From positions 65,516,692 through 65,580,691 of the forward strand of contig OY987299.1 in NCBI GenBank assembly GCA_963920635.1: a stretch of DNA of 64,000 nucleotides. The letters run 5' to 3'. Shown here in pieces: positions 9,871 to 53,392 of the stretch. Position 1 is the stretch's first letter. Each line of letters opens with the position of its first letter. The translations under genes and the position numbers were made by a program. Below the pieces are notes generated by a model. The model was not told the DNA's origin and did no database searches. It worked only from the letters and a program-made list of their open reading frames with translations. Origin of the DNA: Pseudeuparius sepicola (taxonomy: Eukaryota; Arthropoda; Insecta; Coleoptera; Anthribidae).

Positions 9871-9876
9871 TAAAAC
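9871..9876. repeat. left 6-bp target-site duplication TAAAAC
   Basis: TAAAAC directly precedes the first base of the giant element and is repeated directly after its last base at 25703..25708. Confidence 0.85.
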
Positions 9877-9899
9877 AGTAGTATTACAAAGAGAGTACG

Positions 9900-10090
9900 G
9901 GACCACTTTGACCTCAGTTGACCCCTTGATTCTGAGAGTCCCCTACGGCCCGAGGTCACGGGAGCAAAGTGGCTACGTCATGCCCGAGGTCACGTGACGT
10001 CACCGGATGACCCCAGTTGACCCCTAGATCCTGATAGGTTAACCTTTGACCTTTGGGCCACGTGTGACCCCCAGTTGACCCCCCCCCCAC
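9900..10090. promoter_or_regulatory. TGACC/AGGTCA motif cluster in left arm tip
   Basis: The tip holds many TGACC(C/T) and AGGTCA half-sites, including three CAGTTGACCCC repeats, two CGAGGTCACG repeats, and an overlapping CACGTG E-box with TGACGTCA. The block lies immediately upstream of the 102-codon gene and is repeated in the other arm (25500..25685). It could serve transcription or be bound by the element's own protein; neither is shown. Confidence 0.45.
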
Positions 10091-10112
10091 TCCAACGGCT
10101 TGGTGGGGTGAG

Positions 10113-10160
10113 GTCTATATATTCGTGCGCAAGAGCAGTTTTCCCGTTATATACACTTAC
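10113..10160 (+). promoter_or_regulatory. probable promoter of left 102-codon gene
   Basis: CTATATATTC at about 10115 is a TATA-like box, and a second TATATA sits at 10149; the ATG is at 10193. The spacing fits a short 5' leader. The arrangement is kept in the right arm despite several substitutions. Confidence 0.45.
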
Positions 10161-10192
10161 AATTTCCCACAGTCTGATTTGCCGAGTTCAAA

Positions 10193-10501
10193 ATGCAGTC
10201 GTTCCTGAATCACCTGAACAAGAATTTGATCGTCAAGAAATTCGAAAGCGTTCAAAATATGGACGTGGATGAAAATTTTCAAATCACGAGCGTGGACAAA
10301 GTGAACACGCAATACGGAGAGAAGGTCTACGTAGAGTTCGAAGAATTTAAGACGGTGCTGCCGCAACGATACACGGCCGAGTTTACGCCCCAACGGATCG
10401 AAGAAATTAATAGGGATATCGGTAACGGAAGGAGGTATTACATGAAGAGTCTTGGACCCGTCGGCCGATCTACAAATATCGAATTTATTGTAGAACCATG
10501 A
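10193..10501 (+). CDS. 102-aa conserved hypothetical protein, left arm copy
   Basis: An intact 102-codon frame with a TATA-like box about 75 bp upstream and AATAAA at 10626. The protein has a short basic/hydrophobic start (MQSFLNHLNKNL), then a region rich in beta-strand-like alternation (YGEKVYVEFEEFKTVLPQRY), a short helix-like segment (RIEEINRDIG) and a C-terminal strand ending in EFIVEP. This resembles small proteins I associate with arthropod mobile and viral DNA, possibly with an OB-like nucleic-acid-binding fold, but I cannot name a family. No signal peptide or membrane segment is seen. The other arm copy differs at four residues, all within positions 14-33, and is otherwise identical. 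The preserved frame in both copies suggests it is or was functional. Confidence 0.7.
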   Translation: MQSFLNHLNKNLIVKKFESVQNMDVDENFQITSVDKVNTQYGEKVYVEFEEFKTVLPQRYTAEFTPQRIEEINRDIGNGRRYYMKSLGPVGRSTNIEFIVEP

Positions 10502-10855
10502 CGAAGCTGGAGTACAGAAGAAAACTGCAACAATATTTGAAGAATTTAGAAGCATTGAAATATGAACTTATGTTATATGAATTTAAAATGAAGATAAAAC
10601 ATATTGACTTACACAATTAATTTTTAATAAACGTTTAAAAATCTTTTGTTGTGTTTTTTTATAAGAATCTTTGTGTTGAAGGGAAAACACCTGAAGCATC
10701 ACATTATAATAAAACTCTCACTCTAAGCAATAATATCACTCTATTCCACTGTTATGTGAATACAGGGTGATTCTTAACTTATACACATAAATTTGGAAAA
10801 TTGTAGGTTATGTCAAGTAATGGCTAATAATGAAAAAAAAAGTCTAATAAAATTG

Positions 10856-11525
10856 TTATCGATAAGGTCTGCGTTTGTGATCTTATGAACCATAATTTTT
10901 AATTTATTTGTGCAAATAAACCCCGAATTGTTCAAGTACACAAAAATATAACTCAGCTGTTGCGTCGCATCGGGTTACTCGCTGCGAACGCGTGACCGCA
11001 TAGTAAATATATAGTAAGAGAAAACACGTGGAATAGTTCACGACAGACGCCTGCTTTGTTTGGTCGAGCACTCAGCGATTTTGCTGAAACCGCATATAGA
11101 ACAATAGGCTACAAATTTCACCCAATTATCTTCTAAATAAAAAAATCTGAAAAAATTGCAGATAGAATAATAAATGGAAAATTTGGGAAAATCAGCATGT
11201 AACGCAAACGATTTAGGCCGGAATCTTCAACTAGACACGTGGAAATCCGAGGTAGACTCCTTGGTATCAGGAAATGTGATACATTATGGTAAATAAGAAA
11301 CCACGTGGAACCGTATATGATGCGATGTACAACGTAAACAATTAGTACGTCAGGGGCTCGGATTTTCTGCTGATGCAGGTATATCGTGATTTCCAAATAT
11401 ATCTTCTGATCGGCTGATCGGAAAAAATCCTCATATAGCGCAATCGATTTTGGGGCCACCCCTTGGGGGGGGTGGACTTAGTCTACCCCGGGGTGGGTGG
11501 GGGGTGGCGGGTGGGCAACTATGTG
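10856..11525. other. about 670-bp segment present only in left arm
   Basis: The arms align up to AATAAAATTG (10846..10855; right-arm junction near 24701) and again from CCAGGAGGAACGG (11526). The left arm alone has the intervening 670 bp, which ends with a G-rich run. The segment has no terminal inverted repeats of its own. Its right edge falls inside a strong hairpin, so a deletion from the right arm is more likely than an insertion into the left. Confidence 0.7.
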
Positions 11526-11576
11526 CCAGGAGGAACGGAGGCCGAAGGCCTCCGTCCGACTGGCATGTAGTTGCCC
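11513..11576. repeat. GC-rich 64-bp hairpin
   Basis: GGGCAACTA at 11513 pairs with TAGTTGCCC ending at 11576, and GGAGGCC pairs with GGCCTCC around a GAA loop; the stem is interrupted by small mismatches. In the right arm only the CCAG...GGAGGCC part and one outer half survive (24648..24702). Confidence 0.75.
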
Positions 11577-12654
11577 GAACAAAATCCACCCTTCCCCCTT
11601 GCACGCGTTTCGCGCATGCGCATTTCCGCACTTTTGATACCTATGAAAATTCGAAAAATTTTGAAAATTTTTTATTCAAAAAATGTAATTTTAAAAAGGT
11701 CCTGATCCTATAATCCCGATAACATTTTGGGAAATTTTCATTTTTTGACGGTAAAATGTACAAGACAAGACTCAGACGAATGTTTTATATACAAGTGCAG
11801 ATAGAATTTTTTCGAGTGACTGATAAAAACATTATTATAATAGTTAATCGGAAGGGCCCAGATAACATAGGAAATTTTGTTTGAACAAAATCTGTAAAAA
11901 AATCCAAGACGTGAAAATGTAGGTAGAATTTTCGAATAAGTTTTGTATACCGGGAAAAATATATGTAAAGGTAAAAATAACGTCAGTTTCACTTGGAAAA
12001 AAATGATGAAAAAATTTCAGTAAAAAAAATACGATGTAGAGGTTGTACCAAAAAAAATTGGAAATAATTATTTATTCCAGTAAAATATACACAAGACCGA
12101 AAAAGGTAATTGCGCGGCTGTCCCATTTTATACACCCTAGCTGTTTCAGTTCATCTCGTTTGGAAAAATTTTAGGGGTTATTACTTTTTTAAATACCGGT
12201 TTCCTCAACCTTATTTGAAAGTAAATATTTTTTAGTTCCCCACAGAAGGAAATAATGACGATATTTTATACCGGTGGATTCAAAAAATATATAAGGTTAG
12301 GAAAAAACCTTGGTAGGCAAACGCGGCTCTGCTGACCAGACAAAAAAAAACCTTAGTCGACAAATAATGGCCTATAAGAAGGGTGCGTGATTCCACGTAT
12401 CAGTTCGAGTGCTCCAAGATGCAAGTAAGTATATACCAGCTGTCCCATTTTAAACAGCTAGATATTTGGAAACCTTTCGTAAAAAAATTCCCAAGGATTA
12501 CATGAGCAAAAGAAAGAAAAAAATGTAAATATACCAGCTGTCCCATTTATAAACCGCTTGATATCTTGGAAACGAAAACTTATATAAAGGAAGTAAAAGC
12601 CATATCTTAATAGGCGGAGGACCGACTGTCATTCAGACAGGTGAAAAATTTTTG

Positions 12655-13125
12655 TGATTTTTTGTAGAAGTTTTTTTGCCAAAATTTTTTTTTGTCAATT
12701 TTTTTTTGCCAAAATTTTTTTTTGGCAGAATTTTTTTTTGCCAAATTTTTTTTTTGCCAAAATTTTTTTTTGGCAAAATTTTTTTTTACCAAAATTTTTT
12801 TTTACCAAAATTTTTTTTTTTGTAAAATTTTTTTTTCCCCAAATTTTTTTTTCGTCAAAATTTTTTTCCCCAAATTTTTTTTTACCAAAATTTTTTTTTG
12901 GCAGAATTTTTTTTTTACCAAAAATTTTTTTACCAAATTTTTATTTTTGCCAAATTTTTTTTTTACCAAAATTTTTTTTGCCAAAAATTTTTTTTTACAA
13001 ATTTTTTTTACAAATTTTTTTTTTGCAAAATTTTTTTTGACATTTTTTTTGCCAAATTTTTTTTTGTCGAATTTTTTTTTGCCAAATTCTTTTTCGACAA
13101 AATTTTTTTTGATACAAATATAATT
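12655..13125. repeat. T-rich minisatellite, left arm
   Basis: About 28 degenerate units of roughly 16 bp, each a run of 7-9 T followed by GCCAAAA, ACCAAAA, GTCAAAA or similar. All frames appear open and translate to FFAKIFF- or KKKFW-type low-complexity peptides, which is a by-product of the repeat. Confidence 0.9.
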
Positions 13126-14714
13126 GCTAACGTTTAATTTGTTTACCCCATTTACGAAAATGATAACAAAATTGGATCAGACAAGATGTTTTTTCGAAGT
13201 ATAGTTTTTAAACACAGGGTGCCACCACCGGTTTTACGATATAGGTTTCAAAATGCGACGCAAGTACATAAAAAAAATACCCTAGAGATAAGAAAACAAA
13301 ATACAACTCACCGAAAGATTCTTGATGATGTATAAAAAGAAATCAGGTTACATCTAATGCCCCAGACAGTAAAATAAACATCCCCGAGCTATCAGATATA
13401 ACCAAACATCATTTTTCTAACGGCACAGTCATTTTCACGGGAAAAACAACCAGTAACCGTTCAAATTCCATAGATAGGTACTGCCGTAATCCAAAATTTC
13501 ACTGAACTACGCGTATCTATTATACTGAAGTAGGTACTGATACACTTCCATCTTTCCAAAGAAAAACAAACACGAAACTCAGACTTTTCATATATTTATT
13601 ACAACGCCTCGATAGAGTCTTTATCTGTGGCCACGACCGAGAATCTACTGAAGCAAGTGCGACGCATAGGACGTGAAAAGTGCCGAGTTGGTTTTATTAA
13701 ACAATAAAACTTATACCTACGTATATATAAAATAAATGAGAAATATGCCAGAGATGTGAAACCTAATTGTGTTGCAAGTTTGAGGGTCCAAAAAAAAATA
13801 TTGGCTTTAATTTTTTAAGGTGAGAAACACATCTAACAGCCAGTTTGGAAATATACAAGGCAAAAAAAGTAGTGATGTGGCTGTCCCATTTTATGTTTTA
13901 TACAGGTTGGGTTATTTTAGAATAGTTGTTCAATAGACCGAGACAACATCATAAACGCTTCCCGTTAGAACAGAATGTGATGAAAAGAAAAATTCCATCT
14001 GGGTCAAGCTACTACATAACCAAAATAAAAAATACTGAACGTTATAAAATTTAAAAAATCATATTTTCAACGGATTTTTATCCTCTGAAAATTGTTCTTG
14101 TGTAAAATTCAGTTTCTCTGGGTCAAGCTAGGTGGTAACTATATAACCAAAAAAAAAAAATACTGAACGTTATAAAATTTAAAAAATCATATTTTCAAGG
14201 GATTTTTGTCCTCTGAAAATTGGTTTTGTGTAAATTGAGTTTCAATAAGTTACTAATTGAGATAATAGGAAAAAAATCTTAAGAATCTCTTATAGAATTC
14301 TGAGACAACGACCCTGAGAGTAAATATCATACAAAAATCTTTGTGCGTTGACTTTCAACTCAATTTAATAATTAGGTTTAATAATGACAATTTTCTCGAT
14401 TATCTAGAATCAAAAATATTGCGAGTGGCAATTTTCTAGATATCATGTGAAGCCTTATTATTGCGTCGTAAGTTAGAGGATCCAAAAATATTGGCTTAAA
14501 TTGTTTAGTAAATGCGATTAAAATATATTTAGTTTATCAACAGTTAATTGTAACAGCTTATAATCTTAGAAGCTAAACTCTTTAAAAAATTTTTTAGACA
14601 AAAAGTTGTAGTTTAATAATGGTCAGTTGGATTCCTTTTGAATCATGTTTGCATATTACCTACAAGGAGTTACAACCTCAAAACATAGAAATCGCTCATT
14701 TTAAACCGATTTAA

Positions 14715-15075
14715 TAAAAATTTCACCAAAACAATACTTTCACTCATATGATACACTTCTGATTAATAAAAAAGGAACCATAGGTAGTAATAATAAGATA
14801 TTCAACGGAATTTTTATCGACTGTTTGCCCATTTTGCTAGCTTTTGGGGGTATTCCTTGATATTTTAGACTGATAAAAATGAATAATAAAAATTAAAAAT
14901 AAAAATTTACCAAAACAATACTTTCACTCATATAATACACTTCTGATTAATAAAAAAGACACCATAGGTAGTAGTAATAAGTTATTCAACGGAATTTTTA
15001 TCGACTGTTTGCCCATTTTGCTAGCTTTTGGGGGTATTCCTTGATATTTTAGACGGATAAAAATGAATAACTAAA
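14715..15075. repeat. roughly 187-bp direct duplication, left arm
   Basis: The block containing CCAAAACAATACTTTCACTC, then GACTGTTTGCCCATTTTGCT and GGGGGTATTCCTTGATATTT occurs twice, starting near 14727 and 14917. Both units are also present inverted in the right arm, so the duplication predates or was copied by arm conversion. Confidence 0.85.
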
Positions 15076-15267
15076 ATACAAAACGCACTGTTGACTTTAC
15101 TTACGTGAATAGTAAGCCTATAATACGTATCGAAAACAGAGAAATATTCAGGTCAAGAAAAAAATGGCCTAATTTACAATAAAAAATATAGCAGACAACA
15201 TAGCGATGACACCGATTGACCCGTTTTGCTGGTAAAAAGTAAACAAAGGTACCTATTGCGATTCTAA

Positions 15268-15576
15268 TCAGGCATTTCCAACGGAGATGCCTTCAATACG
15301 CCCACGTGGGAGAGCCGCCGGTGTTTCGTCACATGCAAATCGCCGCTCGAGATGGAAGCATCTCGGCCTTTCGACGCATTGCGCGCCACTTCGTTTGTTG
15401 AAATCTGGCCGCCGCGCCGCCGTCAACTTGCCCGGAGATGCCTCGCTACGTGGTGCGTCGCATACTCGCCGTCGCGTGGTGTATGGGCGCCAGCTTTTGG
15501 CCAATTTCAAGGGAATCGTTTTTCATATTTTCGACGGATTTTCGTCCTTTTTGCAGACGTTACACTGCTAAATTGA
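15268..15576. other. GC-rich island in left arm (also 20604..20912 inverted)
   Basis: A sharply GC-rich block between AT-rich sequence, preserved in both arms. It carries Arg-rich open frames on both strands (94 and 80 codons) with a CCGTTTTGCTGG repeat on either side. The frames differ between arms by changes that do not obviously favour a protein. I do not call a gene; base composition explains the open frames. It could be an old captured exon or a regulatory island. Confidence 0.4.
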
Positions 15577-15723
15577 TCCGTTTTGCTGGCAAAAAATATT
15601 TCTATCGCCATGACTGAGTCACGACGCTTGACCTTATGCAATTCGCTGCTGGCGCAACTTCCAAACGCTTCCCCAAATATCTTAACATCTCAAATGGGTC
15701 AAGGTTTCGGCTAGTTTAAAATT

Positions 15724-15800
15724 TATAAAAGTGGTGGGGGTAACGTCTTAAAAAGTGTATGGAAAAATATAAAAGTGGTGGGGGTAATGTCTTAAAAGTG
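15724..15800 (+). promoter_or_regulatory. duplicated TATA region upstream of GNAT-like gene
   Basis: TATAAAAGTGGTGGGGGTAA occurs at 15724 and again at 15768, as a 44-bp direct repeat continuing into GTCTTAAAA. TATAAAAG is a strong TATA box. The second copy lies about 70 bp before the likely ATG. Confidence 0.55.
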
Positions 15801-15837
15801 TGTGACCGATGATTTTTCATTCAAACGTCTGTGCAAC

Positions 15838-16344
15838 ATGGAGATCAGATTCTTTTTTGATCGACAAGCAGTAAACAAAATAAGACAAGAAGTCGTGAGA
15901 GATGGTATTGCAAGAAGTATGTTCGATCAGTGGTGCCTAGATAAAAAAATATCGTGCTATATATTATACGTTGATGCTAAACCGGTTTCATTTGTCCTAA
16001 TGTCAAAAATTGATTTCGACCCTTTAAACAAACACTCCAACCCGAAAAATCTCAATTTTGTTTTTACCCATGAAGAATATCGTCGAAGAGGATATGCGTC
16101 AAGACTAGTGAATCATATTAAGAAAATTAATCAATTTACGTCTTTCTGTTCTAATACCAATTCAGAAAAACTTTTTGAAAACTGTTCATGTATTAATTAC
16201 GGAGAAATAAATTATAACACCATGTATAGATCCCCTAATAAAATGTTTGTGTCAATTTTTCTTCTTTTTTTTTCACAAAGCACCTCAAAATCGGGTCCAT
16301 TATTGCCGAAATCCTCCAACATTGATGATTCAGCAAGAAATTAG
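15838..16344 (+). CDS. GNAT-like N-acetyltransferase
   Basis: An intact frame in the unique core of the giant element. I place the start at the ATG at 15838 (MEIRFFFDRQ); a GTG further upstream also opens the frame. The expected acetyl-CoA-binding signature is visible at about residues 79-98: NFVFTHEEYRRRGYASRL, matching the GNAT motif A pattern (R/Q)xxGx(G/A) after a strand. A central YILYVDAKPVSFVLMS segment fits the preceding strands. The C-terminal 35 residues look divergent. GNAT enzymes move an acetyl group from acetyl-CoA to amines; the substrate cannot be inferred. The gene sits just inside the left arm under a duplicated TATA region. It is not a standard Polinton core gene, so cargo is the simplest view. 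The GNAT call rests on motif A only. Confidence 0.6.
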   Translation: MEIRFFFDRQAVNKIRQEVVRDGIARSMFDQWCLDKKISCYILYVDAKPVSFVLMSKIDFDPLNKHSNPKNLNFVFTHEEYRRRGYASRLVNHIKKINQFTSFCSNTNSEKLFENCSCINYGEINYNTMYRSPNKMFVSIFLLFFSQSTSKSGPLLPKSSNIDDSARN

Positions 16345-17091
16345 ACTACACCCTGATGTACGCCTCTGAAATCCGGGTGTCATCAAACATCTGTGCTCCC
16401 ACGATCCAGGTACGAGCGCGGCTGAGATATTTTGCATCGGAACCCTAGACGCAGCGGCGCTCCGTGGCGCCCGGCGTTTTGCTGTGCAAGTCTCGATAAA
16501 AAATTTGGCCGACGAGCGTGGCCGAGAAATTGAAGAACCACGTCGCATTTAACTGACAATCATCATGCGTTCGTTTCCTACTTCGAGGTAGAATACAGAA
16601 CGCAATAAAAAAAAAATCGAAAATGTTTCACACCTTCAACAAAAATTTTTAATCGCAAATTAGACGTACAGTTTCATATGGATATTAGTTATAAATAGGT
16701 TGAATTGTTCTTTTATATATATTTTTAAATTGTAACAAAACTATATGCATTCATTTTCCCACCACCTTTGAGGTAGAATGCAGGGCGCAGGAGGTCTAAT
16801 CCATGTTTGATCAAACATATTAGAGAGATACAAAGAATAGTGTAATTTAAAAATATGGGATATTACCTTATAAGCTTATATTATGAAAGTATGGAATCAC
16901 AAACAACCGTTTCGAGCTGCAGGGAGAGTCGCGAACTTGATGATACAAAATTCATTTTTTCATACAAATCCTAAACAATATAGACTAGAAAAGATTAGAG
17001 TAAAAACTAGATAATGCAAGTTGGGGCCTTCCTTCTTTCGCCACTGGGGTTGAAACCCAATCTTGAGAGAAACAAAACCATATGAAGGGTA
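16345..17091. other. core of giant element, no gene recognised
   Basis: The first 200 bp are GC-rich. Then two related blocks (near 16567 and 16750) share ATTC/CGTTCNTTTYCYAC and GAGGTAGAATNCAG, a weak direct repeat. No coding region is supported. Confidence 0.4.
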
Positions 17092-17293
17092 CACGGGAAA
17101 AACAGGCCAAGTCATTTTTTGTTGAAATTGGGATTACAGTGCCATCTTGTGGTAAATTGTGTGCTCTTTCAAACCAACGTAATAGTCAGGGGAAAAACAG
17201 GCTAGGTCACAATATACGTATTACTTTAAAATACCCATACACGGGAAGAATAGGCTAAGTCAGCGCGGAACAGGGGAACAACAAGCTAAGTCA
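17092..17293 (+). repeat. four GGGAANAANAGGCYAAGTCA-type units
   Basis: Units at 17092, 17187, 17240 and 17271 match CA(C/G)GGGAARAAYARGCYARGTCA closely. On the minus strand each contains TGACNNNGC, the core that CncC/Nrf2-Maf dimers recognise. They lie upstream of the 17.4-19.7 kb part of the core. Binding is inferred only from the motif. Confidence 0.55.
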
Positions 17294-17608
17294 TAATAAA
17301 AATCGCATAAAATCGTCAGCTGTTTTGTTTAAGGTTAGCAGTTAATTATCGTGATCGTGTTTGCGCTGGCGTCTTTGTACAATCATTACATCACAATAAA
17401 ATCATTCTTCTGAAAAGTGAAGTTTGCGATAATTTGTCTAACAATAATCAAGACCAAAACGAGCTATTTTTCATTATATTTAAACAAAATTGCCAAATCC
17501 CACTGGTTTATAAACTTCACTATGAAATGTGCTATTTATTCACGATTAGTAACATATTGTGGCGTCGGGTAGATGAATTGAGATTAAAATGGTGGAAGAA
17601 GATAACAG

Positions 17609-17745
17609 AAAGAAGTTGGGTTAACAAAAGCTGACTCCTATACAAAAGTATGCAATACCTATCATAATGACAAGTCAAGACTTGGTGGGGTGTATTCAAA
17701 ACAGGCTCTGGAAAAACGGCGGCCTTTTTACTACCCCATCATCCA
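17609..17745 (+). pseudogene. DEAD-box RNA helicase fragment
   Basis: In shifting plus-strand frames this stretch encodes a helix end (EVGLTKA), the Q-motif region (TPIQKYAIPIIM), a linker (SQDLVG), and motif I (KTGSGKTAAFLLP), in the exact order and spacing of DEAD-box helicases such as Vasa, Belle/DDX3 or PL10. One extra base near 17632 and another near 17692 break the frame. No DEAD, SAT or later motifs follow, so this is a fragment, probably one exon or a partial retrocopy. It lies in the unique core, so it came in with the element or was inserted into it. A poor match to any preserved function is expected. Confidence 0.75.
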
Positions 17746-19208
17746 CTAGATCGTTTCTGACCAAACACCGCTCTTAAAAACTGAGAAATATCTGAAACGT
17801 TGTTTTTCACAGATATATGTGATACAAACACCGTACAATATATTGGAGAGGAAACAAAATTAATATTATAAAATGTACTATTTAGGCATTGGAAAAGAAA
17901 CAGAACCAAGCCGTAGATAAATATTTAATTATAGCAGCGTAGGTAATAGAAGATTTTAACGATGATTACCACAGTGACTTCCTTCCAAATTTCGATAAGT
18001 GGAACCGTTTATCAATGACTCCACCGTGACTTTCTACCCCTGCGATTTTCGCTACCTAAAGCAAGCACTCTAACAATTTTTCTAGAGAACACATAGCCTA
18101 AAAGTCTGCCTAATATCCTTACAGAGGTATCTTTTAATTAAAAATATTATACTATTTTAGAAGAGTGCCTTTTCTGTAGCTTACACGTTAAAATGTTGTT
18201 AATGAAACTTGTTCAAGATGAAGAATTAGGTAGGTGTAAAAAAAAAATTTCAAAACCTTAGGCCCATTTTGACCCATTTTGACCTTCTAGCCGAGACGCC
18301 GCGATCAACCTCATTCGTACCCCAAAATGTAAATTTTCAACATACACCCCAAAAGTTCAGCTTTTACCTTGGAAATATTTTTCGACTAAAAGAAAACACC
18401 GATACGAAATTTGAGTGCGCCCGGCCTTGGCGTTCTTGTCCTTTCTGGAATTGGTTTTGTGAGCGATGGGAGATACCTCTGTTGTTCGATTTTTAAGCGG
18501 AAAGTAGGTTGAACTTTTTTTTTTGGGAGATATGTTTTTGCGTCTACATTTTTAATTAACTGTGCAACGATATGATTGGACAACCCATGCGCGATTTGTT
18601 TCTTTAAACATTATCACATTCAATTTCGCAAAGACTCTGCGATGTATTAACAATCTAATTCCCCCTAGTCCATCAGCCCAGTCCGGCCCTAAAGAACGTG
18701 TATAACGCCATACAGTCTAGCTAATTTTTTTTGGATTACATTGCATTATATCGTTCATCCCCGTGGCCTCTTGTTTACCACATATTAAATTTAATGACCA
18801 CGCATAACGCCACACAGTCTCGCTCAGATCAATAAACAAGTTTTTTAAAAATTCTAGAGTGGGCAAATCGTTTTTCTCCTACTATATTTTTTGACTGACA
18901 TCGAATTTTTTCCCTTTAAAGAGGTTTGTTGAATGGCCATTAGCCAGTAAGTTTCTTGATTCACAATAGTAGTTCCAGTGGTGTGTTTTTTGTGTATTTT
19001 GGATACTTACAATGCAGCACCCTAAGAAGTTGTCTCTCTCGACAAAGAAACCTACTATCCTTAGCAATATGCTAATAATGCCTGTAAGTATAAATCTTGG
19101 TTTTCTGGTAATCTTCAACAATTTTTTTCATACAAAATTATTTTTTAAACTTTATTTCTGAAAAATACTTTTTTTCTAAATTAAACTTATTATTTTTTTT
19201 CTTTTCAG
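17746..19208. other. core of giant element, non-coding
   Basis: No recognisable gene. A good splice donor (CCT/GTAAGTAT at 19082/19083) and acceptor (TTTTCTTTTCAG ending 19208) suggest an intron of about 126 bp upstream of the next frame, but joining the ATG at 19012 through it gives an out-of-frame product, so the 5' exon is unresolved. Confidence 0.4.
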
Positions 19209-19687
19209 CCAACCATCGACTCTGCACAGTCATACAACAGCCCGATTTGAATAGTGCGTCCTTCGTGTCGCCCTCCCAAGTGCCTTGTTACGACGAGATA
19301 ATGGCATTCTGTCCGAATTCCATTATTTCACCGGTTCATCGGCAAGAGGACGTCGAGCAGTGTGGTGTGGAAAACACGAATAACCCACAATTGAAAGGAA
19401 ATGGTGGTAAAGACATGCGTCAGTTGGGCATGGACAGCGAGGACTCCTTTAGTGACGTGCACATTAGTGTTAGTCAGCAGATGGACAGCGAGGATGAATT
19501 CGAGGAGCTGACTAGTCCTGGGAGTACTTCACTCGGTTCCTATATATTACAGGTCTCAAAAGGGCTGAAACAAAAGGACGCCGAAAATCTAAAATCCTTG
19601 AGAGAGGAGCAACATCGACTGGCGACTATTAGGAGAGAGAAAGAACGACTGAGAAAAAGGGAGCAGGTATCTATAGCCAAAAATTGA
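19209..19687 (+). CDS. acidic/coiled-coil protein, probable 3' exon
   Basis: The frame is open from the splice acceptor at 19208 to the stop at 19687, followed by AATAAA at 19898. There is no good in-frame ATG near its beginning (the first visible start-like codon is TTG at 19247), which together with the acceptor suggests an exon of a spliced gene. The middle is acidic (MDSEDSFSD, MDSEDEFEEL). The end is a highly charged helix with Lys/Arg/Glu heptad-like spacing (LRKREQ, KDAENLKSL), likely a coiled coil or DNA-contacting tail. I do not recognise a family. It resembles the C-terminal half of small chromatin or transposon-associated regulators, but that is only an impression. Confidence 0.5.
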
Positions 19688-20540
19688 GAAAATGGAGAGG
19701 GATAAACGGCTGTCTGCTGGTATTTTAAAAAGATTTAATGTGGTAAAAAAGTAGTTTTTTCTCACATTAAATATTTTTAAAAAATTTTTGAGTCTTTATT
19801 TTCCAACGTTGTTTATAGATACCTATCCTTCTTTTAGTTTTAAATTTAATACGTATTCTTAGCTTTTAAGTATATTTTCTTTTATATTTTTATACACAAT
19901 AAATATGTTTTATGTATATTTTTGGTTTTTTTCTATCCTCCCTTATAAGTGCAAAAACATGTTGAAACTAAAATGTAATAATAATATCCTAGAGACAAGT
20001 ATTTCCTGATTTTGTTCTCCTGAGAAACATGTTACAAACTGAAAATATGTTAAAGTGCACCATAAAAAGATAAAGATAAAATGTGTAAGTATACATTTTT
20101 ATTAAATAAACCAAAATTCCATTTCTGAATTTCTTACAACAGTACCGATTAAAATAATAAGTCGCTGTTCGAGTCCTATACACAAAGAGTGAATTGCCCA
20201 TTTTCTTTAAGACTGTCTCGTTCTGTTGTGTTTGTATAAGTAGGTATTGTTCTCTCAACTTTTTTTCATTCATAAACAGCTCAACTTATATGAAATTTCC
20301 ACTTTTTCTCTGCATCCAGCATATAATACAAATTTTCCAACCCACATTAACTTTCTAAAACTGCATAAAATTCAATGAGGTTATTCATGAAAACAGTCGA
20401 TTCTTATTACAGCATTTTTATCCAGTCACCAGTCACAGTTCGATGTATGAATTTTATTTACAATTCATTGCATGAAGAAAGCATGCATATTATGTTACAC
20501 CTTTTCCCGCGAATGTCTCTACCCACACACATTGTTTATC
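19688..20540. other. core of giant element, AT-rich, no gene
   Basis: Holds the poly(A) signal of the preceding frame and AT-rich DNA up to the right arm. The minus-strand 94-codon frame at 19989..20273 has no recognisable features. Confidence 0.5.
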
Positions 20541-21114
20541 GCATAAGGCCAAGCGTCGTGACTCAGTCATGGCGATAGAAATATTTTTTGCCAGCAAAAC
20601 GGATCAATTTAGCAGTGCAACGTCTGCAAAAAGGACGAAAATCCGTCGAAAATATGAAAAACGATTCCCTTGAAATTGGCCAAAAGCTGGCGCCCATACA
20701 CCACGCGACGGCGAGTATGCGACGCACCACGTAGCGAGGCATCTTCGGGCAAGTTGACGGCGGCGCGGCGGTCAGATTTCAACAAACGAAGTGGCGCGCA
20801 ATGCGTCGAAAGGCCGAGATGCTTCCATCTCGAGCGGCGATTTGCATGTGACGAAACACCGGCGGCTCTCCCACGTGGGCGTATTGAAGGCATCTCCGTT
20901 GGAAATGCCTGATTAGAATCGCAATAGGTACCTTTGTTTACTTTTTACCAGCAAAACGGGTCAATCGGTGTCATCGCTATGTTGTCTGCTATATTTTTTA
21001 TTGTAAATTAGGCCATTTTTTTCTTGACCTGAATATTTCTCTGTTTTCGATACGTATTATAGGCTTACTATTCACGTAAGTAAAGTCAACAGTGCGTTTT
21101 GTATTTTAGTTATT

Positions 21115-21475
21115 CATTTTTATCCGTCTAAAATATCAAGGAATACCCCCAAAAGCTAGCAAAATGGGCAAACAGTCGATAAAAATTCCGTTGAATAACT
21201 TATTACTACTACCTATGGTGCCTTTTTTATTAATCAGAAGTGTATTATATGAGTGAAAGTATTGTTTTGGTGAAATTTTTATTTTTAATTTTTATTATTC
21301 ATTTTTATCAGTCTAAAATATCAAGGAATACCCCCAAAAGCTAGCAAAATGGGCAAACAGTCGATAAAAATTCCGTTGAATATCTTATTATTACTACCTA
21401 TGGTGCCTTTTTTATTAATCAGAAGTGTATCATATGAGTGAAAGTATTGTTTTGGTGAAATTTTTATTAAATCGG
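21115..21475. repeat. roughly 187-bp direct duplication, right arm
   Basis: Inverted counterpart of the left-arm duplication, with both units present and near-identical. Confidence 0.85.
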
Positions 21476-23054
21476 TTTAAAATGAGCGATTTCTATGTTT
21501 TGAGGTTGTAACTCCTTGTAGGTAATATGCAAACATGATTCAAAAGGAATCCAACTGACCATTATTAAACTACAACTTTTTGTCTAAAAATTTTTTTAAA
21601 GAGTTTAGCTTCTAAGATTATAAGCTGTTACAATTAACTGTTGATAAACTAAATATATTTTAATCGCATTTACTAAACAATTTAAGCCAATATTTTTGGA
21701 TCCTCTAACTTACGACGCAATAATAAGGCTTCACATGATATCTAGAAAATTGCCACTCGCAATATTTTTGATTCTAGATAATCGAGAAAATTGTCATTAT
21801 TAAACCTAATTATTAAATTGAGTTGAAAGTCAACGCACAAAGATTTTTGTATGATATTTACTCTCAGGGTCGTTGTCTCAGAATTCTATAAGAGATTCTT
21901 AAGATTTTTTTCCTATTATCTCAATTAGTAACTTATTGAAACTCAATTTACACAAAACCAATTTTCAGAGGACAAAAATCCCTTGAAAATATGATTTTTT
22001 AAATTGTATAACGTTCAGTATTTTTTATTTTGGTTATATAGTTACCACCTAGCTTGACCCAGAGAAACTGAATTTTACACAAGAACAATTTTCAGAGGAT
22101 AAAAATCCGTTGAAAATATGATTTTTTAAATTTTATAACGTTCAGTATTTTTTATTTTGGTTATGTAGTAGCTTGACCCAGATGGAATTTTTCTTTTCAT
22201 CACATTCTGTTCTAACGGGAAGCGTTTATGATGTTGTCTCGGTCTATTGAACAACTATTCTAAAATAACCCAACCTGTATAAAACATAAAATGGGACAGC
22301 CACATCACTACTTTTTTTGCCTTGTATATTTCCAAACTGGCTGTTAGATGTGTTTCTCACCTTAAAAAATTAAAGCCAATATTTTTTTTTGGACCCTCAA
22401 ACTTGCAACACAATTAGGTTTCACATCTCTGGCATATTTCTCATTTATTTTATATATACGTAGGTATAAGTTTTATTGTTTAATAAAACCAACTCGGCAC
22501 TTTTCACGTCCTATGCGTCGCACTTGCTTCAGTAGATTCTCGGTCGTGGCCACAGATAAAGACTCTATCGAGGCGTTGTAATAAATATATGAAAAGTCTG
22601 AGTTTCGTGTTTGTTTTTCTTTGGAAAGATGGAAGTGTATCAGTACCTACTTCAGTATAATAGATACGCGTAGTTCAGTGAAATTTTGGATTACGGCAGT
22701 ACCTATCTATGGAATTTGAACGGTTACTGGTTGTTTTTCCCGTGAAAATGACTGTGCCGTTAGAAAAATGATGTTTGGTTATATCTGATAGCTCGGGGAT
22801 GTTTATTTTACTGTCTGGGGCATTAGATGTAACCTGATTTCTTTTTATACATCATCAAGAATCTTTCGGTGAGTTGTATTTTGTTTTCTTATCTCTAGGG
22901 TATTTTTTTTATGTACTTGCGTCGCATTTTGAAACCTATATCGTAAAACCGGTGGTGGCACCCTGTGTTTAAAAACTATACTTCGAAAAAACATCTTGTC
23001 TGATCCAATTTTGTTATCATTTTCGTAAATGGGGTAAACAAATTAAACGTTAGC

Positions 23055-23575
23055 AATTATATTTGTATCAAAAAAAATTTTGTCGAAAAAGAATTTGGCA
23101 AAAAAAAATTCGACAAAAAAAAATTTGGCAAAAAAAATGTCAAAAAAAATTTTGAAAAAAAAAAATTTGTAAAAAAAATTTGTAAAAAAAAATTTTTGGC
23201 AAAAAAAATTTTGGTAAAAAAAAAATTTGGCAAAAATAAAAATTTGGCAAAAAAAAAATTTGGTAAAAAAATTTTTGGTAAAAAAAAATTCTGCCAAAAA
23301 AAAATTTTGGTAAAAAAAAATTTGGGGAAAAAAATTTTGACGAAAAAAAAATTTGGGGAAAAAAAAATTTTGCAAAAAAAAAATTTTGCAAAAAAAAATT
23401 TTGGTAAAAAAAAATTTTGGTAAAAAAAAATTTTGCCAAAAAAAAATTTTGCCAAAAAAAAATTTTGGCAAAAAAAAATTTTGGCAAAAAAAAATTCTGC
23501 CAAAAAAAAATTTTGGCAAAAAAAAATTGACAAAAAAAAATTTTGGCAAAAAAACTTCTACAAAAAATCACAAAA
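23055..23575. repeat. A-rich minisatellite, right arm
   Basis: Inverse counterpart of the left-arm minisatellite. It is somewhat longer than the left copy, consistent with slippage after the arms were last homogenised. The open frames across it are not genes. Confidence 0.9.
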
Positions 23576-25054
23576 ATTTTTCACCTGTCTGAATGACAGT
23601 CGGTCCTCCGCCTATTAAGATATGGCTTTTACTTCCTTTATATAAGTTTTCGTTTCCAAGATATCAAGCGGTTTATAAATGGGACAGCTGGTATATTTAC
23701 ATTTTTTTCTTTCTTTTGCTCATGTAATCCTTGGGAATTTTTTTACGAAAGGTTTCCAAATATCTAGCTGTTTAAAAATAGGACAGCTGGTATATACTTA
23801 CTTGCATCTTGGAGCACTCGAACTGATACGTGGAATCACGCACCCTTCTTATAGGCCATTATTTGTCGACTAAGGTTTTTTTTTGTCTGGTCAGCAGAGC
23901 CGCGTTTGCCTACCAAGGTTTTTTCCTAACCTTATATATTTTTTGAATCCACCGGTATAAAATATCGTCATTATTTCCTTCTGTGGGGAACTAAAAAATA
24001 TTTACTTTCAAATAAGGTTGAGGAAACCGGTATTTAAAAAAGTAATAACCCCTAAAATTTTTCCAAACGAGATGAACTGAAACAGCTAGGGTGTATAAAA
24101 TGGGACAGCTGCGCAATTACCTTTTTCGGTCTTGTGTATATTTTACTGGAATAAATAATTATTTCCAATTTTTTTTGGTACAACCTCTACATCGTATTTT
24201 TTTTACTGAAATTTTTTCATCATTTTTTTCCAAGTGAAACTGACGTTATTTTTACCTTTACATATATTTTTCCCGGTATACAAAACTTATTCGAAAATTC
24301 TACCTACATTTTCACGTCTTGGATTTTTTTACAGATTTTGTTCAAACAAAATTTCCTATGTTATCTGGGCCCTTCCGATTAACTATTATAATAATGTTTT
24401 TATCAGTCACTCGAAAAAATTCTATCTGCACTTGTATATAAAACATTCGTCTGAGTCTTGTCTTGTACATTTTACCGTCAAAAAATGAAAATTTCCCAAA
24501 ATGTTATCGGGATTATAGGATCAGGACCTTTTTAAAATTACATTTTTTGAATAAAAAATTTTCAAAATTTTTCGAATTTTCATAGGTATCAAAAGTGCGG
24601 AAATGCGCATGCGCGAAACGCGTGCAAGGGGGAAGGGTGGATTTTGTTCGGGCAACTACATGCCAGTCGGACGGAGGCCTTCGGCCTCCGTTCCTCCTGG
24701 CAATTTTATTAGACTTTTTTTTTCATTATTAGCCATTACTTGACATAACCTACAATTTTCCAAATTTATGTGTATAAGTTAAGAATCGCCCTGTATACAC
24801 ATAACAGTGGAATAGAGTGATATTATTGCTTAGAGTGAGAGTTTTATTATAATATGATGCTTCAGGTGTTTTCCCTTCAACACAAAGATTCTTATAAAAA
24901 AACACAACAAAAGATTTTTAAACGTTTATTTAAAATTAATTGTGTAAGTCAATATGTTTTATCTTCATTTTAATTTCATATAACATAAGTTAATATTTCA
25001 ATGCTTCTAAATTCTTCAAATATTGTTGCAGTTTTCTTCTGTACTCCAGCTTCG

Positions 25055-25363
25055 TCATGGTTCTACAATAAATTCGATATTTGTAGATCGGCCGACGGGT
25101 CCAAGACTCTTCATGTAATACCTCCTTCCGTTACCGATGTCCCTATTAATTTCTTCGATCCGTTGGGGCGTAAACTCGGCCGTGTATCGTTGCGGCAGCA
25201 CCGTCTTAAATTCTTCGAACTCGACGTAGACCTTCTCTCCGTATTGCGTGTTCACTTTGTCCACGCCCGTGATTTGAAAATTTTCACCCACCTCCATATT
25301 TTGAACGCTTTCGAATTTCTTGAAGATCAAATTCTTGTTCAGGTGATTCAGGAACGACTGCAT
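25055..25363 (-). CDS. 102-aa conserved hypothetical protein, right arm copy
   Basis: Second intact copy in the inverted arm. It differs from the left copy at residues 14 (V/F), 24 (D/E), 26 (D/G) and 33 (S/G); residues 34-102 are identical, with one silent change (GAT/GAC) seen there. The four replacement changes are clustered. Upstream are TATATATCC and TATATAC boxes in the same places as in the left arm, and downstream AATAAA reads on the minus strand at 24930..24925. The longer plus-strand frame across this region is the antisense shadow. Confidence 0.7.
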   Translation of the reverse strand: MQSFLNHLNKNLIFKKFESVQNMEVGENFQITGVDKVNTQYGEKVYVEFEEFKTVLPQRYTAEFTPQRIEEINRDIGNGRRYYMKSLGPVGRSTNIEFIVEP

Positions 25364-25384
25364 TTTGAACTCGGCAAATTAGAC

Positions 25385-25442
25385 TGTATAAAACTGCAAG
25401 TGTATATAAGGGGAAACTGCTCTTGCGCTCGGATATATAGAC
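25385..25442 (-). promoter_or_regulatory. probable promoter of right 102-codon gene
   Basis: On the minus strand, GGTCTATATATCC is followed by TTATATACACTTGC and the ATG of the 102-codon gene at 25363. Same layout as the left arm. Confidence 0.45.
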
Positions 25443-25499
25443 CTCTCCCCACCAAGCCGTTGGAGTGGGGGTTGCCCCGTCGTTGGAGTGGGGGCTGAC

Positions 25500-25685
25500 C
25501 CCCACCGTTGGAGTGGGGGGGGGGTCAACTGGGGGTCACACCTATCAGGATCTAGGGGTCAACTGGGGTCATCCGGTGACGTCACGTGACCTCGGGCATG
25601 ACGTAGCCACTTTGCTCCCGTGACCTCGGGCCGTAGGGGACTCTCAGGATCAAGGGGTCAACTGAGGTCAAAGTGGTCCCGTACT
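25500..25685. promoter_or_regulatory. TGACC/AGGTCA motif cluster in right arm tip
   Basis: Inverse copy of the left tip block, with the same CACGTG/TGACGTCA overlap and repeated GGTCAACTG units. The CGTTGGAGTGGGGG unit is expanded next to it. Confidence 0.45.
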
Positions 25686-25702
25686 CTCTTTGTATTACTA
25701 CT

Positions 25703-25708
25703 TAAAAC
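25703..25708. repeat. right 6-bp target-site duplication TAAAAC
   Basis: Direct repeat of 9871..9876, immediately after the terminal ATTACTACT of the element. Confidence 0.85.
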
Positions 25709-47053: not shown

Positions 47054-47960
47054 TCATATGTCCAGGGAGATATTCATTTCTTTATGTAAAAAGGGCCTAA
47101 GAATCTCGGCGCCAATTTGCTGGTGAAATGCTTGCTGGCATTCGATAAAGCATAGTTTTTCGCTATACCAGCTGTCCTGGCAGATATTCGATGTACCGCT
47201 TCCTAAGGTTGCACGTGTCCGTGCTCTTCTTACCCGCAATGTCCAGCCCTTTCTTAACATCTTCATTGATTGCCTGGATTTATTCATGAAATCTACGTCT
47301 TCTTCCTTGTCTGGGTCTTTCAAATTCTCATATTCTTTGTCGGACAATATCATGGTTTTTCCAAAATTGACAAAATCTGAAACTCTCATGTCAGGACGTC
47401 CTCAGGGCACAAGCCAGTAAATGCAAATTCTCATCCCATTTTCGATGGTTATGATTAACGTACATACCCAACATCGTTTTAAGGGTTCGGTTTACCCACT
47501 CTGTGGGATTTTCGCAAGGATGGTAAGCCACATTAAACTTCATGGTGCACTGACACCGATTCAGAAGCTTCCTGAAAATATCACTATGAAATAGAGGTCC
47601 GTTATCGTATAGCACCGTACATGGTACTCCAAAAACAAGAAATACCTCCTGCTCGACTCTAAGCACAATAGTCTGAGAGGACGACTTCCTCAGGGCATAC
47701 ACCAATGAAAACTTGCTTAAATAGTCCGTTACAACCAGAATAAACAAGTTGCTCCTAGTAGACTGCAGGAGGGGACCCATGAAATCCATAGAAATGGTTT
47801 CCCTAGGGCAATTTGGTTTCGAATGACTAACCATCATATTTTTTTGACCTTGAAGAATCTGCTTTGAAGGCAGCACAAGTGGCACAAAGTCTCACATAAC
47901 CCGCAACGTCGCTCCGCATTTTGGGCCAGAAGTAATGTTCAGCTAATCTAAAAAAAATTG
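47054..47960 (-). pseudogene. Gypsy integrase remnant
   Basis: Read on the minus strand from 47960: AEHYFWPKMRSDVAGYV and a Cys pair (CATC) of the H2C2 zinc domain, then the catalytic core with ETISMDFMGPLL (first Asp), VLYDNGPLFHSD (second Asp) and ENPTEWVNRTLK (Glu), the D,D-35-E triad of retroviral-type integrases. The C-terminal part continues from 47389 with MRVSDFVNFG and KFLG-like material, separated by a stop. The His pair of the zinc domain is lost to the LINE junction at about 47950. Not functional. Confidence 0.8.
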
Positions 47961-47986
47961 TAAACACCCATATTTACAAGAATAAA

Positions 47987-48985
47987 ATGGCGGGGAATAA
48001 AGGAATTCAGTGTGGTCAGTGCTCTAAAAGTATACCAAAATCTCACTATAAAGTACAATGTGCATCATGTAATAAGTGGTTTGACCAAGTATGTGCCAAA
48101 TTAACTGAAATTGAGTTGAGATTGCTGGCTGCACAGAGGAAAGCTTGGAAATGTGAAAAATGTATTAGCGTGGATAATTTTGAAGTTAGTAATAATCCCG
48201 CCAAAAGCAATAAAAACAGTAAAAGTGATAATATGAAGTTGATCGCAGAACCAGATGTTTCTGTGATTGACCCAAACCACAAAACAGACCAAGCTGACCT
48301 TGAAGCTCTGAAATGTCTAATTCTGGAACTGAGGACAGATACGAAAGAACTGAAAACAACAATGAATTTTATATCAGAAAAATATGAAGAGGAACGACAA
48401 AAGAATAAACTATTATTGGAAGTTATGGATGAACTAAAAAGGGAAAATGGTAATTTGAAAACTGAACTGTTTTATGTCAGGAACTTTGTTAACGAAGTAG
48501 AGGCGGAAAGAAAGAAAAACAACCTGATAATAAGTGGGATTGTCGAAGATAGCAGAGATACTGTAGATAGGATGAAGAAAAAAGTTATAAAAGTTTTTAA
48601 GTACCTAGATCACAGTTTTACAGAACATAGTATTGTTAAAATTCGTAAAATGGAAATAAAGGAGAAACCTGCTTTAGCGGTTGTGACCTTGCAAAATGAA
48701 GAAATTAAAATGGAAATTTTAAAGAAGAAAAAGGAAAGGGGCTACATTACTACAAATGAATGCGAATTAACTGGCAATAACGTCAAATTATACATAAATG
48801 AAGATCTCCCAGTGGCAACTTTCAAACTATTTCAGGAAGCAAGAAAGTTGAAAAGAAATGGTTATCAATATATATGGCACAAAGGTGGACGTGTATTTAT
48901 AAGAAGAGAACAACAGGATAGTGCAGTTAGACTGAAAAATATCGAACATTTGAAGGAAATTTTCTCTGGAATAAACAATGAATAA
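47987..48985 (+). CDS. LINE ORF1 protein: PHD-type zinc finger and coiled coil
   Basis: An intact 332-codon frame. Residues 8-58 carry a PHD-like Cys/His arrangement: CGQCSKSIP, VQCASCNKWFDQVC and WKCEKC. Residues about 100-180 form a coiled coil (LEALKCLILELRTD, LLEVMDELKRENGNLKTELF). Residues 180-330 contain ERKKNNLIISGIVED and a segment with RVFIRREQ, as in the RNA-binding C-terminal domain of L1-like or CR1-like ORF1 proteins. The role is RNA binding and packaging of the LINE transcript as a ribonucleoprotein; PHD fingers in LINE ORF1 are known in several arthropod CR1/Jockey-group elements. ORF2 follows about 110 bp later. Intactness suggests a young copy. Confidence 0.85.
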   Translation: MAGNKGIQCGQCSKSIPKSHYKVQCASCNKWFDQVCAKLTEIELRLLAAQRKAWKCEKCISVDNFEVSNNPAKSNKNSKSDNMKLIAEPDVSVIDPNHKTDQADLEALKCLILELRTDTKELKTTMNFISEKYEEERQKNKLLLEVMDELKRENGNLKTELFYVRNFVNEVEAERKKNNLIISGIVEDSRDTVDRMKKKVIKVFKYLDHSFTEHSIVKIRKMEIKEKPALAVVTLQNEEIKMEILKKKKERGYITTNECELTGNNVKLYINEDLPVATFKLFQEARKLKRNGYQYIWHKGGRVFIRREQQDSAVRLKNIEHLKEIFSGINNE

Positions 48986-49049
48986 GTGTAATCCATAATT
49001 TTTTATGCTAATATATAATTGGGTAAGGAAATTGTAAACATTCGCTGAA

Positions 49050-50228
49050 TTAAACAGTTTATTAGATGAATATAAGGTTGGAAAGGAGATTGTTTGTGAT
49101 AGTTTGTCTCAGATATCTTGTTTTGATAATTCTCAGAGTGATTTAAATGTGATCCACGTAAATATAAGAAGTATTTATAAAAATTTTGAAAACTTTTTGG
49201 TATTTCTAGAGGCTACAGGCAAACATTTTGATGTTATTGTTATGTCAGAAACACATATTATTTATAATCTTACTGATTTTAATATTCCGGGCTACTTAGC
49301 TTTCTGGAATGAGAGTACTTTCAATACATTTGACGGATGCATGGTGTAAGTGAGTCGGCAGTTTTTTCAGGATTGTTCTATTGTGGAAGCAAATGGTTTA
49401 AAGTGCTTAAAAGTGTCAATATGTAAAAATAAAACAATGTTTGATATTCTAGCCACATACAGGTCTCCTTCTAATGATGCGGAGGACTTTATAACAAATT
49501 TAAATGATATTCTTAATCAAAATATAAAAGATCAAAAACGTATTTATATTGTGGCAGGTGATATAAATATCAACCTGCTTGATACCAACTCGGTATTGGT
49601 TAATGATTATTTCACTACTCTTTACAGTTATGGGTTTTCTAGTATGATTAACAAACCAACTCGAAAACAGGGTAACAGTGCGACGTGCATTGAACATTTT
49701 TTTGTTAAGTCTAAACATAAATTGTGTACTAATATTAATACTGTAATACTGATGATTTCAGTGATCACAATCCAATTATGATAAACTTTAAACTGAATAA
49801 TGATATCACAGAAGGAAACCCTACTAACTGACTTATTTATAAAATAAACGACAATGCTTTAACAGAAAGTCTGTCCACAGAAGAATGGGAAGAGATCCTG
49901 AGGGAAGTTGAGGTTGACTCATGTACGGCTGCGTTTGTTAGGAAGTTAAAGGGCCATATAGAGCGATGTACTGAGGCTCATAATATTACCAGTAAGAAGG
50001 TCAGGCTGAGACCGTGGATCTCCAACGGACTTTTAGTCTCTATACGGCAAAGAAATAATTTAAAAAAGTATTGTACCTTACATCCACATGACACTCAAGC
50101 TTTGACGGAATATAAGAAATATAGAAATAACTTGACAAAATTAATAAAAAAATCGAAATACTTACACTACAGAACGAAAATTAATCAAAATAGAACTGAT
50201 TCAAATCGGACAATTGCCAACTGCTATA
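49050..50228 (+). pseudogene. LINE ORF2 endonuclease part, truncated
   Basis: Begins NLDEYKVGKEIV-like sequence, then the AP-endonuclease landmarks LNVIHVNIRSIYKN, FDVIVMSETHI and IYIVAGDININLL. A stop (TAA) at 49347 and a further break near 49781 interrupt the frame; sequence then continues in the linker (EEWEEILREVEVD, KKVRLRPWISNGLL) to about 50228, where it ends abruptly before any reverse transcriptase motif. The endonuclease nicks target DNA in the intact family. This copy cannot retrotranspose. Confidence 0.8.
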
Positions 50229-50790
50229 TTTCAAGGGTGAAGATCTAACCCTGGCCACCATCTTCTCATACCAATTATCAGATGTCACATTATTTGCCGG
50301 TTCGGGTACCTCCACAGAATCCACTACAGGCACTCAGCGAATAAGCATATCAGGCACCACGTTGTCCTTGCCTTTCCTATGCACTACAGTGAACATGTAC
50401 TGCTGTATACACAGTGCCCAACTGGCCAATCGGCACAATTGGAGAAGCCCACGGACTCTTGCTGGTATCAACGATGCCTTGGTCAAGCATATTTATTAGC
50501 TCTTTATCGATGTGCGCCTGAATGACTGGGGACACCCTGTAGTACCTCTGCTTGATTGAAGGTGAGCAGGTCTTAATGACATGCTCCACCTTGTACGTGT
50601 GACCAAAGGAGGTTCCAAAAGAAGTCTTTCCATCAGCAACAAATTCATCCAACACCCGCTGCTGGTCAGGCTTAAAAATCGTCACCCTATCTCCACTATC
50701 TGTTGTCAAGCTATCTATCTGTGAGTGGTTGTGTTCGTCTGATCCACTGCAAAAATGCCATTCCCGATGTTTCAGACTATCCCCATCCAA
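50229..50790 (-). pseudogene. Gypsy RT start joined to RNase H tail (RT core deleted)
   Basis: On the minus strand the fingers start of Gypsy RT is clear (LINMLDQGIVDTSKSPWASP) and then, without the DD-containing palm, the sequence continues in another frame with LASWALCIQQYMFTVVHRKG and KDNVVPDMLIR, the end of RNase H. The junction lies near 50440. The palm, thumb, connection and most of RNase H, roughly 300 codons, are gone. The piece then reaches the LINE at 50228. Confidence 0.8.
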
Positions 50791-50860
50791 AAATCTTTAT
50801 CAAGGATAATGTATGGGGAAGATCTGGCAGAACCAGAATATCCAAAAGCTTCACGTGGTC

Positions 50861-52985: not shown

Positions 52986-53373
52986 CTCTTCAGCTCAGAT
53001 GTCAACTCATCCTTGCCCAAACGTTTGACATCCCTCTTTCACTTCATAACGGCAGGAGGTGCAGATCCAAGTCGGTAACTCAGTTTAGGATAAACTTCAC
53101 TAGACCACCACAACTGTAATCACCATCATCACCAACAAACACAAAGTATTAGCACAAACACTCCTGAGCAATAATTTACCACTTCCAAATGTACCAACTT
53201 ATTAAGCGTAAAAAAGAAATCAGGAGGGAAAAAAATACCCAAAACCTCTCCTTGAACAGACAACGAGAGGAACTAATCTCTATCTATTCGCAATCTAATA
53301 CTTTTCTTTGTTATTCTCGCTTACAAATTTGAATAACCCAGTGTAAATCAAACAATGCCCGTTTGGCACAAGG

Positions 53374-53392
53374 GCCCCACGTTGGGTGCCAG
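53374..53392 (-). other. Gypsy primer-binding site
   Basis: The minus strand reads TGGCACCCAACGTGGGGCC, the tRNA-complementary type common in insect Gypsy elements, directly after the LTR end (ACAATTTC). It fixes the 5' end and orientation of the element. Confidence 0.75.

Follow-up and report, generated by a model that had tools for sequence, protein, structure and literature searches.

A palindromic insertion of 15,826 bp that ends like a Polinton/Maverick element, but in which no Polinton core gene was found, raises the question of what it is and how it multiplies. It occupies positions 9877-25702 of a 64,000-nucleotide stretch of the genome of the beetle Pseudeuparius sepicola (contig OY987299.1; the whole stretch is hereafter called the window). 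We conclude with good confidence that it belongs to a multi-copy family of palindromes with Polinton ends in which no core gene was found, and that longer Polintons with the same tips likely carry out its replication and integration in trans. The window element is likely a non-autonomous member of this family and a parasite of those longer elements. It is flanked by the target-site duplication TAAAAC (9871-9876 and 25703-25708), an exact 6-bp repeat whose identity is lost at the seventh base, and it starts with AGTAGT and finishes with ACTACT, that is, (AGT)2//(ACT)2. Its inverted arms, 5,766 bp on the left (9877-15642) and 5,165 bp on the right (20538-25702), enclose a core of 4,895 bp (15643-20537, plus strand); the initial annotation, which had described perfect TAAAAC duplications, an AGTAGT start and arms of 5.2-5.8 kb around a 4.9-kb core, is borne out by these measurements.

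Is this structure an accident of one locus? The assembly (769 Mb in 16 contigs, including the window) was searched with the first 524 bp of the element, and the best 40 of 841 candidates, a sample mostly from contig C1, were scored. Eleven further paired copies, all on C1, were read (A to K; W denotes the window copy). The inverted-repeat structure is present in all of them (12/12 with the window), the (AGT)2//(ACT)2 motif stands at both ends in ten, and nine are flanked by a perfect 6-bp duplication, in nine different sequences (10/12 copies with the window). Since all eleven are inverted repeats and nine have perfect duplications, the structure in the window is not due to chance. The matched arms sum to between ~3.7 kb (D, F, and G) and 7.6 kb (B) in nine of the eleven, the two short-armed copies being H (1,465 nt) and J (655 nt). 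Copy K is an almost uninterrupted palindrome with arms of 7,230 nt and ~175 bp between them; its centre, the only one of this kind read through, lacks long frames and has an abundance of GCGTTAACG-like repeats. A search with part of the inner arm (window 13121-14130; best 40 of 1,003 candidates scored) gave ten inward-facing pairs and one other pair of neighbours.

An empty site was found for copy C, whose joined flanks, with a single CACTGC, match 294 contiguous nucleotides at 99.0% identity in the repeat beside copy J (30 nt through the duplication and 264 nt after it); a further 154 nt to the left match again past an interruption of 52 nt. Copies C and J sit in copies of one and the same repeat (flanks L013/L014 and L028), which is what makes the empty site visible. 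The initial annotation had proposed looking in the same genome for copies, 6-bp duplications, and empty sites, and all three were obtained; the checks encountered neither a lack of other copies, nor duplications of other lengths, nor tips of an unrelated superfamily. One pair of matches lying 22.8 kb apart (C1:51614208-51637023) looks different from the copies above: both of its tips match from query position 88 only and both inner-arm matches are on the minus strand. Rearrangement or nesting probably accounts for this.

Each arm carries a 102-codon terminal gene, orf102 (left copy 10193-10501, plus strand; right copy 25055-25363, minus strand, 98/102 residues identical to the left one), located ~316 bp from the tip, pointing inward and preceded by a TATA-like stretch. 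All but one of the 22 arms in the eleven further copies have it at full length (21/22). The best 150 of 3,080 candidates scored in a genome search with orf102 are all at least 99% identical and free of stops. They are spread over contigs C1 to C11 and correspond to 105 places, 45 of them neighbour pairs and 60 singles. Neighbouring copies less than 40 kb apart face inward in 45 of 45 cases, and the element length implied by these pairs has a median of 14.2 kb, with 39 pairs within 12.7-24.6 kb, five shorter (7.4-12.3 kb), and one of 32.9 kb. The gene looks constrained: compared with a relative found in a related family (see below), to which it is 47-50% identical, differences at the three codon positions number 30/23/60 over 94 codons, a pattern such as would be expected under purifying selection. 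The orf102 protein has no Pfam match over the cut-off (best E 0.011), and a homology search with the single sequence as query gave no match; with orf102 and its relative together as query, two database proteins were retrieved (P0001, E 7.5e-21, and P0002, E 5.7e-11). Scans of viral contigs with orf102 and P0001 yielded no relative. Because the structure model is of low confidence (pLDDT 54.3, from a two-row alignment), no fold was assigned; our guess is that the product is probably a small replication or DNA-binding protein.

The palindromes share their ends with longer elements that do contain a Polinton-type gene. The genome was searched for the Pox_A32-type packaging ATPase (PF04665; 149 matches from 150 of 1,173 candidates scored) and for DNA polymerase B (PolB, PF03175; 152 matches from 87 of 1,839 candidates scored), and positions were compared among 150 orf102 matches, 40 tip matches, 106 of the 149 ATPase matches, 86 PolB matches, and 40 of the 150 matches to the orf102 relative. 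This comparison, from which weaker ATPase matches (many of them 243-residue frames) and PolB matches that are mostly second pieces of the same gene were left out, gives counts that are lower bounds. A Pox_A32 ATPase lies 6.9-10.5 kb inward of at least 18 of the 60 unpaired orf102 copies, in all 18 cases on the opposite strand and in 17 within 8.8-10.5 kb. For four tip matches (90-93% identity), an ATPase on the same strand is found 5.4-5.5 kb inward, and the initial 524 bp of the outer left repeat of the window element also match the termini of such ATPase-bearing elements. The genome therefore holds longer elements that combine these ends with a Polinton-type gene, and two of them, both of ~16 kb, could be located from end to end (C5:22845463-~22861880 and C1 ~133534010-133550180). 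Among the matches compared, none of the 45 palindromic pairs contains an ATPase or a PolB gene. The initial annotation had also proposed looking for full elements with the same tips; in this respect elements with the packaging ATPase came to light, while PolB with these tips was not located among the candidates scored, nor integrase, at which no search was aimed.

PolB is found in a related family with recognisably similar ends. Genome matches to the orf102 relative (best 150 of 2,378 candidates scored) form inward-facing pairs ~8-23 kb apart; many of them hold stops within the 109-110 residues matched, a probable effect of a query that extends beyond the normal end of the gene, the frame in the PolB-bearing element being 95 codons long. 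The 40 relative matches compared show 14 neighbour relations with PolB, involving ten PolB genes, and four inward pairs enclose a PolB gene. One PolB-bearing element has the ends AGTAGAGATACTAAGAGAGC and a CATTTT duplication, and its terminal repeat, at least 497 bp long, holds the small gene; in a second pair of this family, which encloses none of the PolB matches compared, the tip is identical and the duplication is TATGTG. The tip of the related family is identical to the window tip at 22 of 29 positions, or 17 of 23 beyond the first six, a likeness equalled in none of 20,000 shuffles. A piece of the polymerase scores 103.6 bits against PF03175, although this family is not listed for the whole 1,125-aa frame. 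The 5.5 kb upstream of one PolB gene stops ~0.6 kb before its terminal gene.

Several further structures were noticed in or beside elements of this related family and around other PolB genes. Copy G of the palindromes interrupts an element of the related family directly upstream of the small terminal gene (L021:1-500 and L022:6935-7434), so that one element is nested in the end of the other. In the two related elements with read ends, the outer flanks contain ~220 bp repeated in inverted orientation (97% and 90% identity; L052/L053 and L054/L055), adjoining the right end and ~400 bp away from the left end; the flank pair of one element has no match to that of the other. A Tc1/mariner-like transposase frame (L051:1680-2564; PF01498 and PF13358, both slightly below cut-off) is flanked by inverted stretches; it lies inward of the related terminal gene, with a PolB gene downstream of it. 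Another palindrome, at C5:31295471-31310982 (L049:5471-L050:4482), has arms of at least 4,482 nt that are 99.98% identical, each with a 1,237-codon frame containing PolB; it was rejected as a palindromic relative for want of an AGT tip and a 6-bp duplication. More inverted PolB pairs occur at C7:27.33-27.34, C3:42.02-42.03, C3:44.26, C11:39.47-39.48, and C2:74.76-74.78 Mb.

The missing genes were not found in the core of the window element either. Copies D, E, F, and G share this core at 98-99% identity; A, B, C, H, I, J, and K have no match to it. A Pfam scan of the six frames of the core detected GNAT acetyltransferase families only, corresponding to a frame of 168 codons (15838-16344, plus strand; PF00583, E 3.4e-7 for the frame with its upstream extension). 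The window element and copy G have this frame intact, but its end is altered in D, a stop interrupts it in E, and F lacks it; because of these changes in D, E, and F the frame reads as a passenger, which it probably is. No relative of it appeared in the viral-contig scan or in a protein search. A short degenerate frame (17628-17756, plus strand), which we take to resemble a DEAD-box helicase fragment, has no Pfam match, and a frame of 146 codons (19247-19687, plus strand), to which no origin was assigned, is changed in some copies. In the right arm, five of the six frames were scanned and nothing exceeded the curated cut-off, weak HC2 matches (E 1.7e-5 and 3.2e-5) stemming from a lysine-rich reading of the tandem array. 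Within this scope of six core frames and five right-arm frames, Pfam thus reveals no Polinton core gene, as the initial annotation had noted by eye: DNA polymerase B, retroviral-like integrase, and transposase are all without a match, and the general scans, run with no model specific to them, list neither capsid proteins nor a protease. Since the palindromes show no machinery of their own, polymerase and integrase are expected to come from elsewhere. That part of the initial annotation which saw a non-autonomous Polinton derivative accordingly stands, given the ends, duplications, size, and relatives with ATPase or PolB, while its description as cargo-carrying is weak in view of the passenger-like GNAT frame. 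Outside the element, the window also holds several frames at 47391-62594 that resemble pieces of retrotransposon gag, integrase, and reverse transcriptase.

How have such long arms remained alike? In the window each arm comprises an outer terminal repeat (9877-10854, plus strand, with the AGTAGT tip; 24702-25702, minus strand, with the ACTACT tip) and an inner part (11524-15642, plus strand; inverted copy 20538-24701, minus strand) that includes a 16-bp tandem array (T-rich, 28 units at 12671-13110, plus strand, on the left; 31 units at 23070-23554, minus strand, on the right). The two arms differ at 2/163 positions in the tips, 25/100 in a G-rich short repeat (10040-10139) where the alignment is poor, 19/713 (2.7%) in the gene region, 2/119 (1.7%) at 14131-14250, 2.2% in the tandem array, and 2/931, 0/206, 0/1,010, and 8/1,392 (0-0.6%) in four inner sections. 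The right arm lacks ~669 bp present in the left one (10855-11523), in which the longest reading frame is 108 aa. Because the junction shows a 2-bp microhomology (TG) and no duplication, we regard this difference as a deletion, and a nested insertion into the left arm was rejected on the same grounds. Changes present in both arms of a copy were found elsewhere: arm positions 1764-2147 are missing from both arms of K, and ~693 bp from arm position 971 are missing from both arms of H, each deletion being private among the copies read; the start of the window deletion is 8 bp away from that of H, but this deletion affects one arm only and its endpoints differ. Since the deletions private to K and H sit in both arms, sequence passes between arms. 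The exchange signal is real but partial, with 11 private substitutions shared by the two arms of a copy and 64 confined to one arm; mean substitution distances are 0.2-0.5% within copies and 0.4-1.0% between copies.

A number of observations weigh against the interpretation of these palindromes as Polinton-mobilised elements whose arms are matched through folding. Copy J has no duplication and copy E lacks the left tip (first 10 bp). The nearest relative of an arm is its own partner in only 15/24, 14/22, 8/16, and 8/12 cases in four segments, and mean distances between arms of the same side and of opposite sides are nearly equal in these segments, which could be explained by inversion of the middle through recombination between the arms. 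One-sided arm changes persist in W, B, and F, and D and G have a one-sided arm deletion in common, for which reason we rejected an obligatory rebuilding of the arms in every round. No PolB gene lies within 18 kb inward of any of the 150 orf102 copies or the 40 tips (87 of 1,839 PolB candidates scored), and integrase was not located in the tip-sharing ATPase elements, no search having been aimed at it. None of the 40 scored inner-arm matches falls inside one of the 18 ATPase elements, so that the palindrome as a doubled end of an ATPase element is supported for its outer part only. Finally, replication, packaging, and hairpin formation are proposed here from sequence.

The main rival to correction by folding accepts the same Polinton-ended, non-autonomous family and ascribes the identity of its arms to gene conversion and inversion in the chromosome after insertion. 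Palindromes of sex chromosomes keep their arms identical by gene conversion. We hold this to be a credible contender, though one with less than an even chance. It agrees with the restriction of both-arm changes to some copies (K and H), with the one-sided changes elsewhere, and with the patchy divergence of the window arms, 2.7% in the gene region against 0-0.6% in most of the inner sections; K and H, the copies with changes in both arms, have intact duplications, an observation compatible with both views. A different departure, that the family is a remnant in which a duplicated end replaced the genes and which spread only in the past, would fit the 0/45 pairs with a core gene among the matches compared. 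We think it improbable, given that all 150 copies of orf102 scored, at 105 places, have an unbroken frame and at least 99% identity, and that the low distances between copies indicate recent copying.

Long inverted arms with internal tandem repeats are also typical of the fold-back elements FB, Galileo, and Tetris, and the lack of any transposase match in the frames scanned would suit a fold-back element of another superfamily (of the FB, Galileo/P, or Tetris type), possibly undescribed and merely Polinton-like, as the initial annotation had offered as its second choice. In those elements duplication lengths and transposase class differ from the Polinton pattern, whereas the palindromic family has 6-bp duplications, the (AGT)2 end motif, longer elements with the same tips, terminal gene, and packaging ATPase, and a related family with PolB between homologous ends. 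All of this counts against such an origin, which we judge highly improbable. Chimeric fold-back reads can yield near-identical inverted arms, so that palindromic long reads might in principle have created the structure during assembly; the perfect 6-bp duplications in 10 of the 12 copies, the copy-specific one-sided arm differences, and the empty site make an artefact scarcely credible.

The position of these palindromes relative to known systems can be seen from their ends and lengths. PMC8097293 gives the (AGT)2//(ACT)2 end motif for vertebrate Mavericks, a size of 12.7-24.6 kb for intact elements, and terminal repeats that in these measure 46-1,447 bp (402 on average). The family resembles Polintons/Mavericks in its 6-bp target duplications, end motif, and size range, and in the presence in the same genome of elements with PolB or packaging ATPase between the same or related ends. 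It differs in the absence of any core gene found inside and in arms that sum to ~3.7-7.6 kb in nine of the eleven further copies, compared with a range that refers to vertebrates only; to this extent the remark in the initial annotation that the arms far exceed the usual length is justified. Like miniature inverted-repeat transposable elements (MITEs) and other non-autonomous DNA transposons, the palindromes have the ends of a gene-bearing family without its genes and occur in many copies, but MITEs are a few hundred bp long, in contrast with the median of 14.2 kb and the unbroken gene in each end seen here. Snap-back genomes of adenoviruses offer a further parallel, as protein-primed linear DNA with one end mirrored around other DNA, with the difference that they are by-products of virus growth and not a heritable multi-copy family.

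For the palindromic parasite of longer Polintons that we favour, a life cycle can be proposed. A polymerase supplied from elsewhere would start replication by protein priming at the (AGT)2 tips; strand displacement would then free a single strand able to fold into one stem of several kilobases, along which repair or copying may move changes from arm to arm, and a Polinton integrase acting in trans would insert the duplex with a 6-bp stagger. By analogy with the symmetric defective genomes of adenoviruses, thought to arise by snap-back replication error, the palindrome itself probably originated from such an error doubling one end. According to PMC8097293, the end repeats of vertebrate Mavericks are expected to serve jumping-back in protein-primed replication. 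A bolder version, which we put forward tentatively and consider rather unlikely as a whole, would see in the family a heritable snap-back genome copied by a helper polymerase, in which one multi-kilobase hairpin formed in each round can re-match the arms, packaging into the helper capsid sets the length of ~14 kb, and the gene in both arms serves replication or recognition of the helper.

Polintons and fold-back elements are known; judged by its sequence, the palindromic coreless variant with Polinton ends appears to be new. A phrase search of the literature, from which subscription papers were outside the scope, returned no non-autonomous Polinton/Maverick, and no title or abstract start in the literature searched describes palindromic Polintons. 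Polintons have been linked to many eukaryotic DNA viruses (PMC6431247). A young, coreless palindromic family living beside gene-bearing relatives with the same ends allows the mobilisation in trans of protein-primed elements to be tested. It also offers a way to ask whether correction of long terminal repeats proceeds through folding of a single strand, and whether elements are limited in size by the length that can be packaged.

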